Positions 2,974 through 17,642 of a stretch of 64,000 bases of DNA are shown here, in pieces. The notes beneath the pieces were generated by a model. The model saw only the letters and a list, made by a program, of their open reading frames with translations. It was not told where the DNA came from and did no database searches. This DNA is from Sinimarinibacterium arenosum (GTDB taxonomy: Bacteria; Pseudomonadota; Gammaproteobacteria; Nevskiales; Nevskiaceae). Position 1 is the first letter of the stretch. The number at the start of each line of letters is the position of its first letter. The position numbers were made by a program, and so were the translations under genes. The DNA lies in the NCBI RefSeq assembly GCF_005047655.1, contig NZ_SUKF01000002.1, positions 248,001 through 312,000 on the forward strand, read 5' to 3'.

Positions 2974-3611
2974 GACGCACCTCCTGCGGCCGGTGCTGTG
3001 GCGTCAGCCTGGGCGGCCGCCGGCGCCTTCAGCGACTGCAGGAAGGCAATCAATGCATCCATCTTGGTCTTGCCGGCAACAGCAGCAGCAGCCCCTTCGA
3101 TCTCGTCGTCGGGGAATGGCACGCCGACCCGCTTGAGCGCGACCATTTCGGCCCTGACTTCGTCGCCATCAAGCATCTGCTCGGCCAGCCACGGATAGCT
3201 CGGCATGTTCGACTCAGGAACCACGTCGCGCGGGTTCATCAGATGGGTGATATGCCAGTCGTCGCTGTAACGCCCACCGACTCGCGCCAGATCCGGACCG
3301 GTACGCTTGGAGCCCCACTGGAACGGGTGATCCCACACCGACTCACCGGCGGTCGATCGCGGACCATAGCGCAGGACTTCCTCATGCAACCCGCGCACCA
3401 TCTGCGAGTGGCAGTTGTAGCAGCCCTCGTGGACGTAGACGTCACGCCCCGCGACCTGCAGTGCAGTTCGCATCGGCAGTCCCGGGGCCGGCTGGGTCAC
3501 GGAACTCTGGAACATCAGCGGAACGATTTCGACCAGGCCTCCAAAGGAGATGGCAACGACAATCAGGACTCCGAGCCAGACAACGTTCTTCTCGATAAAT
3601 TCGTGATTCAT
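2970..3611 (-). CDS. ccoO: cbb3-type cytochrome c oxidase subunit II (monohaem cytochrome c)
   Basis: Membrane-anchored cytochrome c that passes electrons to the catalytic subunit. The 213-residue protein begins with one N-terminal helix (about residues 12-34). The haem motif CYNCHSQ follows at about residue 59, in the typical context [17 protein letters not shown], and SNMPSYPWL supplies the distal methionine. The C-terminus is Ala/Pro-rich. The start overlaps the ccoN stop (ATGA, 3608-3611), so translation is probably coupled. Length and motif order match CcoO/FixO. Confidence 0.97.
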
Positions 3612-5059
3612 GCCAAGGCTCCCTTGCTGCTTGCGCGCACCGGTTCAGCGCCAGGTGTGCTGATCGTCTTGTAGACGTTCCAAGCCATTATCAGCATGCC
3701 GGACAGGAAGGTCAGACCGCCGAGCAGACGCACGCCGTAGTACGGATAGGTCGCCTTGAGGCTTTCGATGAAGGTGTAGGTCAAGGTGCCGTCGTCCTCC
3801 ACCGCGCGCCACATCAGACCCTGCATGACACCGGCGATCCACATCGCGGTGATGTACAGCACCGTGCCGATGGTCGACAGCCAGAAGTGCAGGTTGATCG
3901 CGGGAATGCTGTACATCTTCGGTCGGTTCCACAGGCGTGGAACCAGCACGTAGATCGAGCCAATCGAGATCATTGCGACCCAGCCCAGAGCACCGGAATG
4001 CACATGACCAATGGTCCAATCGGTGTAGTGCGACAGCGCATTGACCGTCTTGATCGACATCATCGGACCTTCGAAGGTCGACATGCCGTAGAAGGACAAC
4101 GACACAATCATGAACTTCAGGATGGGATCGTCGCGCAGCTTATGCCACGCACCCGACAAGGTCATGATGCCGTTGATCATGCCGCCCCAGGACGGTGCCA
4201 GCAGGATCAGCGAGAACGCCATGCCGATGGACTGCACCCAGTCCGGCAGCGCGGTGTAGTGCAGATGGTGCGGGCCGGCCCACATGTAGATCGAAATCAG
4301 TGCCCAGAAATGCACCACCGACAGCCGATAGCTGTAGATCGGGCGTCCGGCCTGCTTCGGCACGAAGTAGTACATCATGCCGAGGAAGCCTGCAGTCAGG
4401 AAGAAGCCAACCGCGTTGTGGCCGTACCACCACTGAACCATCGCGTCGACTGCACCAGAATAGATCGGATATGACTTGGTCAGGCTGACTGGTATCGCCA
4501 GACTGTTAACGATGTGCAGCACCGCAATGGCGATGATGTAGGCGCCATAGAACCAGTTGGCTACATAGATATGGCTGACCTTGCGCTTGGCAATCGTGCC
4601 GAAGAACACGATGGCGTAGGACACCCACACCACTGCGATCAGGATATCGATCGGCCATTCCAGCTCGGCGTATTCCTTGCTCTGTGTGATTCCCAGCGGC
4701 AAGGTGATCGCTGCAGCGACGATAACGGCCTGCCAACCCCAGAAGGTGAAGCTCGCAAGCTTCGGCAGGAACAGTCCGGTGTGGGATGTTCTCTGCACAA
4801 CCCAGTAAGAGGTCGCAAACAGCGCGCATCCACCGAACGCAAAGATCACCGCATTGGTATGCAGTGGCCGCAAGCGGCTGTAGGTCAGAAACGGAACATC
4901 AAAATTCAATGCTGGAAACATCAACTGCGACGCGATAATCACGCCGACCAGCATTCCGACGATCCCCCAAACGACCGTCATTACGGAGAACTGGCGTATC
5001 ACGGTATCGTGATAGACCGGCGCCGCGACGGTTTTGTGTGCAACAGTGTCCGTGGCCAT
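3608..5059 (-). CDS. ccoN: cbb3-type cytochrome c oxidase subunit I (catalytic)
   Basis: Haem-copper oxidase subunit that reduces oxygen to water with high affinity and pumps protons. I chose ATG at 5059 ([10 protein letters not shown], 483 residues) because GGGAG stands 6-7 bases upstream; an in-frame ATG at 5080 has no such site. About twelve membrane helices are visible. Metal ligand regions include [13 protein letters not shown] (low-spin haem His), [11 protein letters not shown] (CuB His), the double His in GPHHLHYTA, and [12 protein letters not shown] near the C-terminus (haem His pair). It is the first gene of the operon and has an FNR/Anr-type site 78 bases upstream. Confidence 0.98.
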
Positions 5060-5101
5060 TGGCACTCCCGAGTCGAACAAGCCCCATTTCGGAGCGGTGC
5101 G

Positions 5102-5144
5102 ATTGTCGGGGGACAGGCGTTGACGTCACATTGACTTGCGTCAA
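5102..5144 (-). promoter_or_regulatory. FNR/Anr-type site and promoter for the cco operon
   Basis: The palindrome TTGAC-TTGC-GTCAA at 5131-5144 matches the FNR/Anr site TTGAT-N4-ATCAA with a C/G change in each half, a variant common in Anr sites. On the minus strand a -10-like hexamer GACAAT lies at 5107-5102. The predicted start (about 5095) then puts the palindrome centre near -42, the class II activation position. The site sits between the prs-like gene stop (5163) and ccoN, so ccoN can be transcribed independently of the upstream genes. Confidence 0.8.
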
Positions 5145-5162: not shown

Positions 5163-6074
5163 TTATACGATGGATTTCAGATAGTTACGCAGCGCGTGAG
5201 CGATCGGCGCGGCGATGTCCACGGCGTTGCTGGCGTGCTCGATGGTATTTGCGGTTACCAGCCGTTGGGCGCCCGCTTCCGCCAACAAGCGCTCCGCCTC
5301 TCCGGCGAACACCGCGTGTACTGCCAGGCACACCGGCGCACCGAAACCCCGTTCGAGCAGCGCGACAACCGTTTTTGACAGCGTATGTCCGGTCGACAGG
5401 ATGTCGTCGACCAGGACCGGGGTGAGCCCTTGGACCGCTTCAAGCTCCGGAACCTCGATATCGACGTCGACGTCGCCTCGCCGAATCTTGCGCAGCACCA
5501 CAAACGGCGCCCCGGCCATCTCGGCCACGGCCCCAACCCACTGCATGCTTTCCTCATCAGGCCCGACCAGCAGCGGCTTTTCAACGTTGCGACGGATCCA
5601 CTCCGCCATTAATGGCACCGCGCTGACCACAGTGCACGGCACGCGATACAGCGCATCAAGCCGGTGATAACGGTGCAGATGCGGGTCAACCGTCACCAGA
5701 TAGTCGAAATGGGTTGATACCAGGTGCGCGAACGGGCGCGCCGAAACCGCCTCGCCGGTATGGAAACGCTTGTCTTGGCGCATGTAGGCCAGATACGGTG
5801 CCAGCAGCCCGATCGAGCGCGCACCCAGCTCACGGGCGGTGAATGCGGCGGACAGCAGCGGAAAAATGATGCTGTCGGGATTCTTCAGGGTGCAGAAGAC
5901 AACGCAATCGCGGCCCGCGAGCCGCGTGCACATGCGGACCAGCGATTCGCCGTCCGGAAACCGGTGCAATTCAACGGGCACGAGTTCCATATCCATCTGC
6001 TGCGCCAATGCCTCGGCAAACGGCGCACGGCCGTCGAATGTCAGCAGCACAGGATTCAGTCGTTCTTCAGACAC
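5163..6074 (-). CDS. Ribose-phosphate pyrophosphokinase (PRPP synthetase) homologue
   Basis: The family makes PRPP from ribose 5-phosphate and ATP, releasing AMP. The 303-residue protein has the two-domain phosphoribosyltransferase-like layout: the ATP/loop region LAPYLAYMRQDKRFH (family form RYARQDR), the divalent-metal/ATP stretch TVDPHLHRYH, and the PRPP-binding loop LVDDILSTGHTL near residue 220. It is about ten residues shorter than housekeeping Prs and quite divergent, so it is probably a second, specialised copy rather than the essential enzyme. The start overlaps the end of the upstream phosphorylase gene by 19 bases, implying coupled expression. The actual substrate (ribose 5-phosphate or a related sugar) is not known. 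Confidence 0.85.
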   Translation of the reverse strand: MSEERLNPVLLTFDGRAPFAEALAQQMDMELVPVELHRFPDGESLVRMCTRLAGRDCVVFCTLKNPDSIIFPLLSAAFTARELGARSIGLLAPYLAYMRQDKRFHTGEAVSARPFAHLVSTHFDYLVTVDPHLHRYHRLDALYRVPCTVVSAVPLMAEWIRRNVEKPLLVGPDEESMQWVGAVAEMAGAPFVVLRKIRRGDVDVDIEVPELEAVQGLTPVLVDDILSTGHTLSKTVVALLERGFGAPVCLAVHAVFAGEAERLLAEAGAQRLVTANTIEHASNAVDIAAPIAHALRNYLKSIV

Positions 6075-7567
6075 ACGATCTCCGGATGTTCTTCAAGATA
6101 GTCCAGCGCAAATGCGATTTCGCCGGCACTGTCGGCATGCAGGGTGAACATCGACTGGCCGACTTCAATGCGGTCGCCCAACCTGACATGCAGATCAACA
6201 CCTGCCGCAGGGGTCCGCGGCGCGCCGGCAAACTTCGCCACACGTGACAGCTTGCGGCTGTCGATTCCACTGACGAGGCCACCGCGCGACGCGGCAACCG
6301 GCCGATGAAAGCGCGACGCCGGCGGCTCGCGCAGCCCACCCTGGGCGGCAGCGATCGCCTGGAATTTTTCCCAGGCAGCACCGCTGTCGAGAAGCTGTGT
6401 CGCACGCTCCAGGCCACTGGCACCGCTGGCATCGGGGACAAAATCGAGGATCTCTGCAGCCAGCGTCAGGGATCGTTCACGCAGGTCTGCGGGCGCGCTC
6501 GCTGCATTTTGCAATACGGCCAGCACATCGCGCGCCTCCAGCGCAGGACCAATGCCATGGCCGACCGGCTGAGTTCCGTCACTGAGCACTGTGCGCAGGT
6601 GCAATCCAAGCTGCTCACCCACGGTCACCAGGCGCTGCGCCAGGGCCTCGGCTGCAGCCCGATCCCTGACCTTGGCAGTCGGGCCGAACGGCAGATCGAC
6701 CACGATATGCGTCGATCCCGCCGCGAGCTTCTTGGACAGCACACTCGCGACCAGCTGCCCTTCGCTGTCGAAATCCAGCGGCCGCTCGACACGGATCAGA
6801 ACGTCGTCCGCGGGCGACAGACGCACCGCGCCGCCCCAGACGATGCAGCCGTTTTCGCGTTCGATCACGCGGCGCATCTGCGCCAGACTCAGATCGACCG
6901 GCGCCAGGGTTTCCATGGTGTCGGCGGTTCCCGCCGGCGAGGTGATCGCACGCGATGAAGTCTTGGGAATCGTCAGTCCGGCAGCGGCCACGATCGGCAC
7001 CACGATCAAGGTTGTTCGATTGCCGGGCAAGCCGCCGATGCAGTGCTTGTCGACGATCGGGCTGCGCCCCCAGCTCAAGCGCTCGCCCACCTCGACCATG
7101 GCCCGGGTCAGCGCCAGCGTCTCTCCGACGTCAAGACGCGATCCCGAGCAGGCGGTCACGAAGGCGGCCAGCTCCAGCTCTGAATAGCGTCCTGCGGCAA
7201 CATCCTTCACGATCGCACGGACCTGATCGTCGTCGAGCCGTCGGCCATAGACCTTGGCCCGCAGAAACGACAGCGAATCCAGTGGCTCGGGGTGGCGCAG
7301 CTCGGCGGTATCGCCCTCTCCGGCATTCAGCAGGCGCCATGCAACCTCTGACAGCGCTGCCTCATCGGCTGCGAGCCAGTCGGCCGACACGACATTCAAG
7401 GTCGCGATGACGCGATGGTGATTGCGCCGGATCTCGATACGCGACTGCGCCTCAAAACCCTCCGAGTGGCATACGGCGCTGTCGACACGCATGAAAATCA
7501 CCGGGGATTGATAGGTATCGATCCCGGCGCGGCGCAGACGGACCAGTGCGGACGCTCGTTTGGGCAT
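6056..7567 (-). CDS. Thymidine phosphorylase family protein, AMP phosphorylase type
   Basis: Pyrimidine/AMP phosphorylase family (glycosyltransferase superfamily). Start ATG at 7567 (MPKRASALVRL) gives 503 residues, the length of the archaeal-type group rather than of E. coli DeoA (about 440). An N-terminal beta domain of about 90 residues precedes the catalytic core. The phosphate-binding loop reads DKHCIGGLPGNRTT and is followed by IPKTSSRAITSPAGTADTME. These match archaeal AMP phosphorylase (DKHSIGG-PGNK, TSSRAITS-AGTAD) better than DeoA (DKHSTGGVGD). AMP phosphorylase turns AMP and phosphate into adenine and ribose 1,5-bisphosphate. No RuBisCO or ribose-bisphosphate isomerase gene is in the window. 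It overlaps the PRPP-synthetase homologue downstream. Confidence 0.88.
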   Translation of the reverse strand: MPKRASALVRLRRAGIDTYQSPVIFMRVDSAVCHSEGFEAQSRIEIRRNHHRVIATLNVVSADWLAADEAALSEVAWRLLNAGEGDTAELRHPEPLDSLSFLRAKVYGRRLDDDQVRAIVKDVAAGRYSELELAAFVTACSGSRLDVGETLALTRAMVEVGERLSWGRSPIVDKHCIGGLPGNRTTLIVVPIVAAAGLTIPKTSSRAITSPAGTADTMETLAPVDLSLAQMRRVIERENGCIVWGGAVRLSPADDVLIRVERPLDFDSEGQLVASVLSKKLAAGSTHIVVDLPFGPTAKVRDRAAAEALAQRLVTVGEQLGLHLRTVLSDGTQPVGHGIGPALEARDVLAVLQNAASAPADLRERSLTLAAEILDFVPDASGASGLERATQLLDSGAAWEKFQAIAAAQGGLREPPASRFHRPVAASRGGLVSGIDSRKLSRVAKFAGAPRTPAAGVDLHVRLGDRIEVGQSMFTLHADSAGEIAFALDYLEEHPEIVCLKND

Positions 7568-7719
7568 GCGGATAGCGCAGCGAATGAAGGTTCGGTAGTG
7601 GACGCGGCCAGACGCTGGCCGTGCCGCCAGACGGACGCCGCGTGCCGGCAACGCCCGATGGCGGGGGCATACGATAGCCGATCCGACGTGATGATCGCGT
7701 CCGCTCGACGGCGCAGCCG

Positions 7720-8538
7720 TCAGCGCAGAGGATCGTACGGCCCGGAATCGTGGTGCAAGGGCAATTCGGTATGCGGCAACTCGTCCTGATGCGTCTCACC
7801 CGCCGCGACAACCGCATTCCCTCCTGCACGGATGACCGCGTCCTCGGCGATCTCCAGCAGGGTTTCTGGTGTCAGCACACCGCTGCGCCAGTAGCTGACC
7901 ACGCCGATCGACGCGGTCACCGCAAAAGCTCGGCCCTGCCCGCCCGCATAGGTTTCCGACTGAATCCGATCACGCATGCGACCGGCAATCATCATCGCGT
8001 GATCCAGGGTGGTCTCGCGCAGAATCGCCGCGAAGCGGTCCGAGCTCAGTCGCGCAACGCAATCATCCTCGCGCACCTGCGCGACCAGTCCTACCGCCAC
8101 CGTCTGCAACACTCGATCAGCGCGCGCACAGCCGTATTGCCCGAGCAGACGCGAAAAGTCGTCGATATCGATCATCAACACGGTCAACGGCCGGCCCTTG
8201 CGTCGGGCGGTCGCCAGCTCGTCATGCAGGCGCTCGTGAAAGTAGCCCGCTTCGTGAACGCCAGTCAGGGGATCGAACAGTCCGCCACTGCGCCGGCTCG
8301 CGCGCATCCGCTGCACCAGCAGCAACGACAGCGCGGTCACCAACGCCATGTACAGATACAACCCGACGTTGCTAACCAGCTCGGTCGCAGCAGGCGCACC
8401 ACCGACCACGGCAATCAGCCACCAGCCCGCCGGCACTCCGAGGACAACGGCAAGACCCAGCACCAAACCACCCTCGCGCAAACCTCCGAACGCGCGACTG
8501 CGCGCGCCATGCTGCAAGATCTGGCGATACCGTGTCAT
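7720..8538 (-). CDS. Membrane GGDEF-domain protein with a degenerate active site
   Basis: The 272-residue protein has two predicted membrane helices (about residues 24-46 and 55-77) and then a GGDEF fold. The fold start is well kept (DPLTGVHEAGYFHERL), as is the metal-site aspartate region (LMIDIDDFSRLL). The signature loop, however, reads ARLSSDRFAAIL, so GGDEF has become SSDRF. The second Gly and the Glu needed for substrate binding and catalysis are gone, so diguanylate cyclase activity is unlikely. It may instead bind GTP or act as a partner protein. The C-terminal 25 residues are hydrophilic and His/Asp-rich. It diverges from the universal stress protein gene and shares a 149-base control region with it. 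Confidence 0.85.
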   Translation of the reverse strand: MTRYRQILQHGARSRAFGGLREGGLVLGLAVVLGVPAGWWLIAVVGGAPAATELVSNVGLYLYMALVTALSLLLVQRMRASRRSGGLFDPLTGVHEAGYFHERLHDELATARRKGRPLTVLMIDIDDFSRLLGQYGCARADRVLQTVAVGLVAQVREDDCVARLSSDRFAAILRETTLDHAMMIAGRMRDRIQSETYAGGQGRAFAVTASIGVVSYWRSGVLTPETLLEIAEDAVIRAGGNAVVAAGETHQDELPHTELPLHHDSGPYDPLR

Positions 8539-8619: not shown

Positions 8620-8633
8620 TTGACAGGGGTCAA
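8620..8633 (+). promoter_or_regulatory. FNR/Anr-type site upstream of the universal stress protein gene
   Basis: TTGAC-AGGG-GTCAA is a perfect inverted repeat of the same TTGAC/GTCAA form as the ccoN site. Its centre is 61 bases before the ATG at 8688. A weak -10-like GAAAAT at 8656-8661 would put the start near 8668 and the site near -41.5, an activation position. The ribosome site GAGGAG precedes the ATG. The divergent GGDEF gene starts 82 bases away on the other side and might also respond. Confidence 0.75.
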
Positions 8634-8687: not shown

Positions 8688-9665
8688 ATGAGCCAGTACC
8701 AGCGCATACTCGTTATCGTCGACCCCGGCCTGCGGCGCACGCCTGCGGTGGAACGCGCCTTGCGCCTGGCCAAAGCAACCGGCGCAGCACTGCGCCTGTG
8801 CCTGTTCGACTTTCATGCCGGAATCGCCGCTGTCGGCGTAGTGTCCGAGGAAGTCATGGCGCTGGCCAAGGCTGGATTCCTGCGCGAGCGCGAGGAATGG
8901 CTGAATGACGAAGCGGCGCTGCTGCGCGCTGACGGCATCCAGGTGGAAACAGAAGTCATCTGGGGCTCACCGATCCACGAGAAAATCATTGGCGCAGTGG
9001 TGGAGTTCCGTCCAGATCTGGTGCTCAAGGATGTGCACGCCGAACCGGCACTAAAACGCCTGATGTACACACCGCTGGACTGGAAACTGATGCGCCTGTG
9101 CCCGGCGCCGCTTCTGCTGGTGAATGCGCATGCGCATCCGCTGCCACGCCGGGTTATCGCCGCGGTTGACACCGGCGCCGAGGGCAAAGAAGCCGAATCC
9201 CTCAACGACACCGTCGTCCATGCGGCATTGCAGCTGGCGCTGCAATGCGATGCGTCGCTGCATCTGGCACACGCCTTTGATGGCCTCAGCACCGCCGCAA
9301 TGGTTGATCCCCAGGGCGATGGGCTGCTGATCAGCGAGGCTTACGAGGCCCTACAGGCCATGCACACACAGCGCTTCGACGCGTTTGCCGAAAAGCATGG
9401 CGTGCCGGCCGAGCGCAAGCATTTTCTGGAAGGCCCGACGGCCGATGCGATTGCCGACCTTGCCAACACGGCGGAAGCGGATGTTGTCGCGGTAGGGACC
9501 GTGTTCCGCGAAGGGCTGGAACGCCTCATCCTGGGCAGCAGCGCCGAACGCATCCTTGAGCGCTTGCACTGCGACGTGCTGGTGATCAAGCCGCCCGAGT
9601 TCATCCACCTGCTGGCCGAACATCTGGACATCCCCGAGGAACTGCTGCCGTCTATCCCGGGTTGA
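8688..9665 (+). CDS. Tandem-domain universal stress protein (UspE-like)
   Basis: The 325-residue cytoplasmic protein consists of two Usp domains. The first (about 1-150) starts YQRILVIVDPGLRR; the second (about 155-305) starts PRRVIAAVDTGAEG. The second keeps the nucleotide-loop pattern VGTVFREGLERLILGSSAE, typical of ATP-binding Usp proteins, while the first has the degenerate KDVHAEPALKRLMYTPLD. About 20 acidic residues extend the C-terminus. Usp proteins of this kind support survival under oxygen limitation in Pseudomonas and other proteobacteria, and several are under Anr. The FNR/Anr-type site upstream fits that role. The partner or ligand here is unknown. Confidence 0.92.
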   Translation: MSQYQRILVIVDPGLRRTPAVERALRLAKATGAALRLCLFDFHAGIAAVGVVSEEVMALAKAGFLREREEWLNDEAALLRADGIQVETEVIWGSPIHEKIIGAVVEFRPDLVLKDVHAEPALKRLMYTPLDWKLMRLCPAPLLLVNAHAHPLPRRVIAAVDTGAEGKEAESLNDTVVHAALQLALQCDASLHLAHAFDGLSTAAMVDPQGDGLLISEAYEALQAMHTQRFDAFAEKHGVPAERKHFLEGPTADAIADLANTAEADVVAVGTVFREGLERLILGSSAERILERLHCDVLVIKPPEFIHLLAEHLDIPEELLPSIPG

Positions 9666-16876: not shown

Positions 16877-16890
16877 TTGACCGGGGTCAA
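16877..16890 (-). promoter_or_regulatory. FNR/Anr-type site, hemN-proximal
   Basis: TTGAC-CGGG-GTCAA, a perfect five-base inverted repeat of the same form as the ccoN and stress-protein sites. Its centre lies 65 bases upstream of the hemN GTG start, so a transcription start near 16842 would place it at -41.5. The -10 candidate on the minus strand there is weak. Confidence 0.75.
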
Positions 16891-16910
16891 CAAGCCACTT
16901 CCCACGCAAA

Positions 16911-17642
16911 TTAGTTGATCCAGATCAAGGTCGCCATGCGCCCGCAATCGCCGTCGCGGCGATACGAGTACCAGTTTCGGGCGTCGCTGTAAGTGCACAG
17001 CCCACCTCCATAAATCTGGGAAACGCCCGCGCGCTGCAGGCGCTGCCGCGCCAGTGCGTACAGATCGCACAACCAGCGGTCGCCGCGGCCGGCAGTGAAC
17101 GCTGTCACGGCCTGGGCATCCTGCTTGATGAAGCGCTCGCGCACCTCCGGACCAACTTCGAACGCCTGCGGCCCGATCGCTGCGCCCATCCAGGCCATCA
17201 GCGCAGATGGCGGCGCCGGCAACGCGGCAACGGTCTGCTCCAGCACGCCGCCGCACAGGCCGCGCCAGCCGGCGTGCGCCGCCGCCACACAGCGACCGTC
17301 GGCATCGCACAGCAGCACCGGCAGACAGTCCGCAGTCAGCACCGCACAGACAGCGCCCGGCTGCGCGGTCCATGACGCGTCGGCACAATCCGAGTCGACG
17401 CTGCGTGGAACCTGCAGCACGCGGGTCCCGTGCACCTGATGCAGCCAACCCACGGCATCCGGCACACCATACACGTCGTGCAACCGGCGTCGATTCGATT
17501 CGACATCGCGCAGATCGTCGCCGCTACGGGTACCGAGGTTGAACTCCGCATAGACCCCGCGACTGACTCCACCCAGGCGCGTGGTCTGCAGCGCCCGCAC
17601 CTGCGGCGGCGCCGGCCACTGCGCTGGCAGAATCGCGCTCAT
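16911..17642 (-). CDS. pgeF: Multicopper-like PgeF/YfiH family protein (purine nucleoside phosphorylase/peptidoglycan editing)
   Basis: Family enzymes (DUF152, once called laccase-domain) have purine nucleoside phosphorylase and adenosine deaminase activity, and E. coli PgeF removes mis-incorporated serine from peptidoglycan precursors. From ATG 17642 (MSAILPAQWPAPPQVRAL) it is 243 residues, the usual length. The metal/catalytic residues are visible in LHQVHGTRVL (His), VLTADCLPVLLCD (Cys) and AAAHAGWRGLCGG (His). The start overlaps the rluD stop (17642-17644), the common rluD-pgeF order in proteobacteria. Its last codons form an FNR consensus site used, probably, by hemN downstream. Confidence 0.92.
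   Translation of the reverse strand: MSAILPAQWPAPPQVRALQTTRLGGVSRGVYAEFNLGTRSGDDLRDVESNRRRLHDVYGVPDAVGWLHQVHGTRVLQVPRSVDSDCADASWTAQPGAVCAVLTADCLPVLLCDADGRCVAAAHAGWRGLCGGVLEQTVAALPAPPSALMAWMGAAIGPQAFEVGPEVRERFIKQDAQAVTAFTAGRGDRWLCDLYALARQRLQRAGVSQIYGGGLCTYSDARNWYSYRRDGDCGRMATLIWIN
16915..16928 (-). promoter_or_regulatory. Perfect FNR consensus site inside the end of pgeF, distal to hemN
   Basis: TTGAT-CCAG-ATCAA matches the FNR consensus TTGAT-N4-ATCAA in all ten specified bases. It lies 38 bases (centre to centre) upstream of the hemN-proximal site and is built from the last sense codons of pgeF (Leu-Ile-Trp-Ile-Asn). Its centre is 103 bases before the hemN start. Confidence 0.78.

Follow-up and report, generated by a model that had tools for sequence, protein, structure and literature searches.

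A 64,000-nucleotide stretch of the Sinimarinibacterium arenosum genome (contig NZ_SUKF01000002.1, positions 248,001 to 312,000; hereafter the window) carries two overlapping genes that encode a phosphorylase and a homologue of the phosphoribosyl pyrophosphate (PRPP) synthase Prs. We propose, with a probability of about 0.6, that this pair is central to a bacterial module for nucleotide breakdown at low oxygen, in which nucleoside 5'-monophosphates (NMPs) are split into a free base and ribose 1,5-bisphosphate (R15P) and the Prs homologue returns R15P to PRPP or ribose 5-phosphate. Sequence comparisons give good support to the assignment of the phosphorylase to the archaeal NMP-phosphorylase type rather than to DeoA, and the partnership of the two genes is likewise well supported. 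The pair is laid out as follows.

6056..7567, minus strand, NMP (adenosine monophosphate, AMP) phosphorylase-type gene; ATG at 7567, stop codon at 6056-6058, 503 amino acids
5163..6074, minus strand, Prs homologue of the PRK07199 family; GTG at 6074, stop codon at 5163, 303 amino acids
6056..6074, minus strand, overlap of the two genes over 19 bases; GGAG 5 bases ahead of the Prs GTG

The overlap with a divergent Prs, reported in a first-pass annotation of this DNA, is thus borne out by the sequence. An alternative, longer in-frame TTG start of the phosphorylase lies at 7651.

Among NCBIfam profiles, the phosphorylase passed NF003338 with 685 bits (cut-off 434) and TIGR02645 with 578.5 bits (434.6); NF003338 also matches in three archaeal controls. 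An identity as DeoA or pyrimidine-nucleoside phosphorylase (PyNP) was rejected on the profiles PRK05820 (224.5 bits, cut-off 269), TIGR02644 (206.7, 409), TIGR02643 (174.5, 570.7) and PRK06078 (152.5, 559), as well as on the separate clade and the 19 diagnostic residues described below. The closest solved structure is 4ga5 (1e-101), the AMP phosphorylase of Thermococcus kodakarensis that was deposited as a putative thymidine phosphorylase, whereas the thymidine phosphorylase 1azy reached only 2e-31. A tree was built from 38 rows, comprising 26 bacterial NF003338 sequences (the window's included), three PhnN fusions, two archaeal sequences, six DeoA/PyNP sequences and one TrpD. The first-pass annotation had named a clear placement with DeoA as the outcome that would refute its proposal; in this tree all six DeoA/PyNP rows group in a single clade (100/100, branch 2.6) and the window phosphorylase falls outside it, on the other side with the archaeal rows, a side that is mostly unresolved inside and where the two archaeal rows stand apart, the TrpD outgroup being very long.

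As specific to the NMP side we counted residues that both archaeal rows share with 95% or more of the 26 bacterial rows and that every one of the six DeoA/PyNP rows lacks. The window phosphorylase carries 19 of 19, N183 and E261 among them (at S98, also one of the 19, two of the six DeoA/PyNP rows have gaps). E261 stands where all six DeoA/PyNP rows have an arginine, a residue that contacts the pyrimidine in DeoA. The loop DKHCIGGLPGN, residues 173-183, had been read as that of archaeal AMP phosphorylases. The assignment to the NMP-phosphorylase type stands on profiles, structure, tree and residues, whereas the exact string is not an archaeal mark: T. kodakarensis has DVHSIGGVPGN, Halorussus DKHSIGGVAGN and the DeoA/PyNP enzymes DKHSTGGV-GD. 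Since the two archaeal loops differ, what marks the NMP side is the one-residue insertion together with the asparagine. The T. kodakarensis enzyme TK0352 (4ga4-4ga6) accordingly resembles the window phosphorylase in a profile alignment that spans position 35 to 500, N-terminal domain included, in the 19 diagnostic residues and in the PGN insertion; it differs in having DVH for DKH, and the bacterial phosphorylase has Prs or PhnN for partner with no R15P isomerase. From family, tree and residues we predict that the window enzyme performs phosphorolysis of 5'-NMPs. The S. arenosum genome encodes two proteins with the TP/TrpD helical domain, the window phosphorylase and one on contig C1; no DeoA was found in it, because this second member reads as TrpD by sequence.

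The association of the two genes was followed in 299 genomes of the phylum, with thresholds of E 1e-100 for the phosphorylase and E 1e-70 for the PRK07199 Prs. The phosphorylase was found in 36 genomes and the Prs in 34, all of them among the 36; none of the 263 genomes lacking the phosphorylase encodes this Prs. At 33 of the 38 phosphorylase places, the Prs gene lies on the same strand within 170 nucleotides downstream; at two (G154 and G293) its coordinates place it some 4 kb upstream, still within the same-strand cluster of the phosphorylase, and the remaining three correspond to a contig end, a PhnN fusion (G249) and a broken gene (G255). In a wider genome collection, relatives of the phosphorylase occur in at least 584 stretches, of which the best 80 were fetched as loci and grouped at 80% identity into 62 dereplicated clusters. 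Neighbours were counted there by tblastn; greedy calling of open reading frames (ORFs) undercounts in GC-rich DNA. A Prs match is present in 70 of the 80 loci and lies directly behind the phosphorylase in 65, with an extrapolated gap of -46 to 62 nucleotides, and in 50 of the 62 clusters. The earlier suggestion that both enzymes act together gains support from this pairing across genomes and loci. The same counts show the pair to be a widespread annotated operon, in place of the undescribed feature of this window for which it had been taken; database records name the phosphorylase relatives 'thymidine phosphorylase family protein'.

Two observations on the fetched loci may be added. On a Niveispirillum plasmid (L148:4806-7894), a gene of the metallo-beta-lactamase (MBL) fold directly follows the phosphorylase and Prs is not among the listed genes. 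A 21-kb stretch carrying an RNase-phosphorylase-Prs operon shows about 99% identity among Achromobacter, Pseudomonas, Pigmentiphaga and two metagenome-assembled genomes of Burkholderiales, and an Acidovorax plasmid shares 87% identity with it over 15.7 kb; judging by this identity, the shared stretch is a recent transfer across orders. The loci concerned are L053, L056, L061, L062, L063 (21 kb), L052 and the plasmid L152.

The Prs homologue passed NF005537 with 379 bits (cut-off 322), and its nearest solved structure is the Methanocaldococcus jannaschii PRPP synthase 1u9y. The family was aligned over 73 members (the 70 matches less four short or interrupted ones, plus six plasmid copies and the window's); a row for the canonical Prs of this genome proved to be a shadow frame and was disregarded. 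Thirteen positions kept in 99-100% of the members (F39, D41, E43, R99, Q100, D101, H132, D173, K196, R198, D223, D224 and T231) match catalytic and PRPP-loop residues of ordinary PRPP synthases, with roles assigned from the Bacillus subtilis enzyme. Unlike ordinary PRPP synthases, the PRK07199 proteins have a Leu-His-Arg insert directly after the catalytic His and the residues E175, S176 and W179, all kept at 99-100%, and are strictly paired with the phosphorylase. The genome encodes a second Prs, whose N-terminal domain matches its profile at 169.8 bits, compared with 64.1 for the window's.

A further view of the partner's role comes from PhnN, a ribose 1,5-bisphosphokinase of the guanylate-kinase-like family that converts R15P to PRPP. 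In four relatives, PhnN is fused to the N-terminus of the phosphorylase.

L134:4400-7395, PhnN-phosphorylase fusion of Variovorax sp. SRS16
L136:4497-7239, PhnN-phosphorylase fusion of Paraburkholderia sp. 22B1P
L147:5125-8091, PhnN-phosphorylase fusion of Pacificitalea manganoxidans
L130:7412-10079, PhnN-phosphorylase fusion of genome G249

Three of the fusions passed the PhnN cut-off of 156 (179.7, 178.9 and 183.9 bits) and that of G249 was judged by eye. In the tree, three fusions branch within the bacterial phosphorylase family. The replacement by PhnN suggests that in this branch the phosphorylase yields R15P and that R15P then goes to PRPP. PhnN takes the partner place of Prs in the four fusions, although it belongs to another protein family, and a PhnN of its own was rejected for S. 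arenosum, whose best relative scores 50.7 bits and is presumably guanylate kinase. Directly ahead of all four fusions lies nadC, encoding quinolinate phosphoribosyltransferase (profile cut-off passed at 320.6, 322.8 and 322.7 bits in three loci, by eye in G249). This arrangement suggests that the PhnN-fused branch may convert quinolinate to nicotinate with PRPP recycled. The three aligned fusions depart from the remaining sequences at two residues: position 258 has N in place of I, and position 261 has T, V or N in place of E. Transporter genes lie near the fusion in Variovorax and Pacificitalea. Orthologues of bug27 are reported to adjoin nadC and phnN in Variovorax and the Bordetella pertussis Bug27 to bind quinolinate; the words thymidine and phosphorylase are absent from the main text of that article (PMC11452294).

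Neighbouring genes suggest where the nucleotides could come from and where the ribose could go. A protein of the beta-CASP/RMMBL type, whose closest solved structure is the ribonuclease TTHA0252, is encoded in 54 of the 80 fetched loci; it is directly upstream in 30 of the 62 clusters and within 3 kb in 38, seven clusters having too little upstream DNA. In the survey of the phylum, beta-CASP (E 1e-15) is present in 23 of 36 carriers of the phosphorylase versus 44 of 263 other genomes (Fisher p = 1e-8, not corrected for kinship) and, from coordinates, within about 3 kb of the phosphorylase in 15 carriers. Phosphoketolase and acetate kinase occur in 23 and 11 of the 80 loci and, within 6.5 kb of the phosphorylase, in 10 and 6 of the 62 clusters; phosphoketolase is encoded by 11 of 36 carriers versus 36 of 263 others (p = 0.014) and belongs to the same-strand cluster of the phosphorylase in G003, G076, G154 (two clusters) and G293. 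A compact row of such genes is carried by a Criblamydia sequanensis plasmid (L138:1-9975), with phosphoketolase, glycogen phosphorylase (glgP), an ATP-cone gene, an MBL-fold gene (its product beta-CASP-like by NCBIfam, under the cut-offs), phosphorylase, Prs and acetate/propionate kinase; by its gene content this cluster looks like a polymer-to-acetyl-phosphate set. A gene of a glucoamylase family lies there on the opposite strand. At L054:8426-10840, the phosphoketolase beside the operon represents a divergent branch of XFP; on the nearest NCBIfam subfamily, which has a cut-off of 777, it scores 145 bits. P-type metal ATPases and RND pumps are found in 42 and 18 of the 80 loci, in part because the 21-kb island was sampled several times.

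The link to oxygen had been drawn from nearby FNR-type sites and is strengthened by a published operon. In Bradyrhizobium diazoefficiens, bll3115 (MBL fold), bll3116 (Prs) and bll3117 (thymidine phosphorylase family) belong to the core microoxic proteome, with log2 values of 2.9, 4.4 and 2.1 in microoxia (PMC6515984, Table 2). The unit bll3117-bll3116-bll3115 has a predicted FixK2 box at -74, and in a fixK2 mutant bll3117 and bll3115 change -6.6 fold and -30.6 fold, respectively; another FixK2-box unit, bll2518-bll2517 (phosphoketolase, acetate kinase), changes about -10 fold (PMC9104804, Table 2). The Bradyrhizobium operon resembles the window in its neighbouring phosphorylase and Prs genes, as matched by the annotation of USDA110, and differs in having an MBL-fold gene inside the operon, the beta-CASP gene of S. 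arenosum being 22 kb off. The gene order phosphorylase, Prs, MBL fold is also that of a B. septentrionale plasmid. A low-oxygen role, published for the Bradyrhizobium operon, is by this analogy likely for the S. arenosum pair. The surroundings of the pair in the window comprise the following features.

7720..8538, minus strand, GGDEF gene (Pfam PF00990, 102 bits), 152 nucleotides upstream of the phosphorylase gene
8688..9665, plus strand, UspE-like universal stress protein gene (Pfam Usp, 123 bits, two stretches), divergent from the GGDEF gene
3608-5080, minus strand, ccoN-like ORF, named from its sequence; cbb3 oxidase operon, downstream of the Prs gene
8620..8633, FNR-type box TTGACAGGGGTCAA, exact match, between the divergent GGDEF and Usp genes
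5131..5144, FNR-type box TTGACTTGCGTCAA, exact match, between the end of the Prs gene and the start of ccoN

With the pattern TTGAY-N4-RTCAA, the 64 kb contain four exact boxes (at 5131, 8620, 16877 and 16915) against a shuffle mean of 0.23, and four were reached in 0 of 100 shuffles. The boxes noticed earlier are real, and none of them lies directly before the pair: they precede ccoN, separate the GGDEF and Usp genes and lie near a hemN-like ORF, no exact box was found in the 152 nucleotides that separate the phosphorylase from the GGDEF gene, and a one-mismatch site at 7508 falls within the phosphorylase frame. The box at 8620 may nonetheless act on the pair, since the GGDEF gene is possibly the first gene of the phosphorylase-Prs transcript; a search of the gap between GGDEF gene and phosphorylase for a terminator-like site found none. 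By its position, the box at 5131 is part of the cbb3 operon.

If these indications are combined, the module would proceed in few steps. In many relatives the neighbouring beta-CASP ribonuclease could supply NMPs from RNA, a role perhaps filled in S. arenosum by the more distant gene. The phosphorylase would then convert a 5'-NMP and phosphate to a free base and R15P, as predicted from its family, tree position and residues. The gene pair and the replacement by PhnN suggest that Prs moves the ribose phosphate on, most likely from R15P to PRPP or in an exchange between PRPP and ribose 5-phosphate. Ribose would return to the PRPP pools and, if phosphoketolase and acetate kinase are encoded along with the pair, could yield acetyl phosphate and ATP without oxygen. 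A CRP/FNR-type regulator, published for the Bradyrhizobium operon, would tie expression to oxygen limitation here as well. The RNA source, the PRPP or ribose 5-phosphate destination and the gain of ATP through phosphoketolase are all suggested by gene neighbourhoods. A bolder proposal, which we advance only tentatively, is that the PRK07199 'Prs' is an R15P-using, PRPP-forming, non-homologous counterpart of PhnN whose inserted His-Arg would hold the C1 phosphate; with the phosphorylase and the beta-CASP RNase, it would constitute an undescribed route from RNA to PRPP on oxygen loss, and the PhnN-nadC branch would be a second new use, from quinolinate to nicotinate with PRPP recycled.

Other readings of the pair have to be weighed against this module. 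An ordinary forward Prs could make PRPP and AMP from ribose 5-phosphate and ATP while the phosphorylase removes AMP and pulls the reaction. The retained catalytic residues of the 73 members, the strict pairing and the known use of AMP by the T. kodakarensis enzyme (PMC9700705) all agree with such a drain, which we nevertheless find doubtful: it leaves R15P without a fate, duplicates a second Prs with the far better N-terminal domain score, and accounts for none of the links to beta-CASP RNase, phosphoketolase and PhnN. A reversed phosphorylase, building NMPs from bases and R15P that the Prs homologue makes from ribose 5-phosphate, has a parallel in the conversion of nucleosides to NMPs via ribose 1-phosphate and R15P in Thermococcus (PMC9700705); this synthetic direction appears quite improbable, as the PhnN fusions indicate that R15P is consumed rather than made and the RNase and phosphoketolase neighbours indicate breakdown. 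The database name, which would make the enzyme an ordinary thymidine or pyrimidine-nucleoside phosphorylase, reflects shared Pfam domains and 30 residues common to the NMP and DeoA/PyNP sides; with all DeoA and PyNP cut-offs missed, the DeoA/PyNP enzymes in their own clade at 100/100 and glutamate E261 in place of their arginine, we regard it as the least credible of the readings.

The archaeal NMP shunt, or pentose bisphosphate pathway, is known from archaea and has been reported from some uncultured bacteria (PMC9700705, PMC7304191, PMC12542636) and would share its first step, NMP and phosphate to base and R15P, with the bacterial pair; R15P would then become ribulose 1,5-bisphosphate and be carboxylated by RuBisCO. 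The first-pass annotation had found neither RuBisCO nor the isomerase here. For the R15P isomerase this holds, the best relative in the genome (L002) scoring 160 bits on TIGR00511 with a cut-off of 314.1; RuBisCO is encoded after all, by one large-subunit gene (450.5 bits) that lies on another contig and is followed by a cbbX-like ORF, named from its sequence. A genome survey with and without RuBisCO, proposed at the same time, shows that the pair occurs both ways: RuBisCO (E 1e-20) is present in 19 of 36 carriers versus 77 of 263 others (p = 0.007, not corrected for kinship) and absent from 17. The RuBisCO of S. arenosum, the higher share of RuBisCO among the carriers and the 160-bit TIGR00511 relative favour the shunt. 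Because no isomerase exceeds the cut-off in any of the 299 genomes, even a weaker relative is missing at E 1e-40 in 19 of 36 carriers, and RuBisCO is optional, the shunt was rejected as the general fate of R15P, and we consider it improbable for S. arenosum too. The bacterial module is set apart from it by handling R15P with neither an R15P isomerase nor a required RuBisCO.

Several results weigh against the proposed breakdown module. The phosphorylase misses the cut-off of the AMP_phos equivalog TIGR03327 (467.5 bits versus 535), on which the Halorussus reference scores 611, and the literature searched, largely without subscription papers, yielded no measured activity of any bacterial member. 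No Prs is found near the phosphorylase in 10 of the 80 loci, of which L102 lies at a contig end, and PhnN, looked for in these ten, was not found either. Ordinary chemistry with ribose 5-phosphate and ATP is compatible with the Prs homologue, because all catalytic PRPP-synthase residues are kept. Beta-CASP is missing at E 1e-15 from 13 of the 36 carriers, including all 11 of family f33, and the co-occurrence tests ignore kinship. In S. arenosum itself, no phosphoketolase was found at E 1e-20, and the beta-CASP gene, about 22 kb from the pair on the same contig, encodes a protein whose eight best matches in the fetched loci reach no more than 38-44% identity. Exact FNR boxes within 400 nucleotides before the operon are confined to 4 of 78 loci (mean of 0.1 in shuffles and 0.8 in random windows), a count on which the box was dropped as a general mark of the operon; with one mismatch allowed, the number rises to 9 of 78, where shuffles average 3.4, the miscut region L090 being among the nine. 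Finally, PMC6515984 marks the Bradyrhizobium genes as not belonging to the direct FixK2 regulon that an earlier study had defined.

Some features around the pair remain to be described. The Usp gene, whose product scored 209.6 bits on NF008380 and did not reach the cut-off of 227, belongs to the flank and is possibly co-regulated with the pair. The cco and hemN names were read off translations only; near the hemN-like ORF, at 16877-16928, two exact FNR-type boxes start 38 bases apart. Three proteins compared with PADLOC for a role in anti-phage defence gave no match at E 0.001. The distant beta-CASP gene overlaps a Usp gene by one base, with a Crp/Fnr-type regulator close by. Its island (L119:5001-16330, G000:C12:229001-240330) encodes Usp, the beta-CASP RNase, the Crp/Fnr regulator, a response regulator, a PAS histidine kinase, Hsp20, a deacetylase, a CoA-ligase/acetyltransferase (GNAT) and MgtC-DUF4010, has an exact FNR box at L119:11570, and looks like a low-oxygen island.

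Genome records that encode the phosphorylase number in the hundreds among bacteria, with at least 584 stretches, some of them from nitrogen-fixing bacteria; in most the enzyme goes by the misleading name of thymidine phosphorylase. No function was described for the bacterial phosphorylase-Prs pair in the literature searched, again largely outside subscription papers, and nucleotide phosphorolysis has so far been discussed together with RuBisCO, in archaea and candidate phyla. The proposed module raises the question of the fate of R15P in ordinary bacteria and offers a testable function for genes of the FixK2 regulon that have been published without an explanation. If it is correct, bacteria would recover ribose, and perhaps energy, by nucleotide phosphorolysis when oxygen runs out, with no need for RuBisCO.

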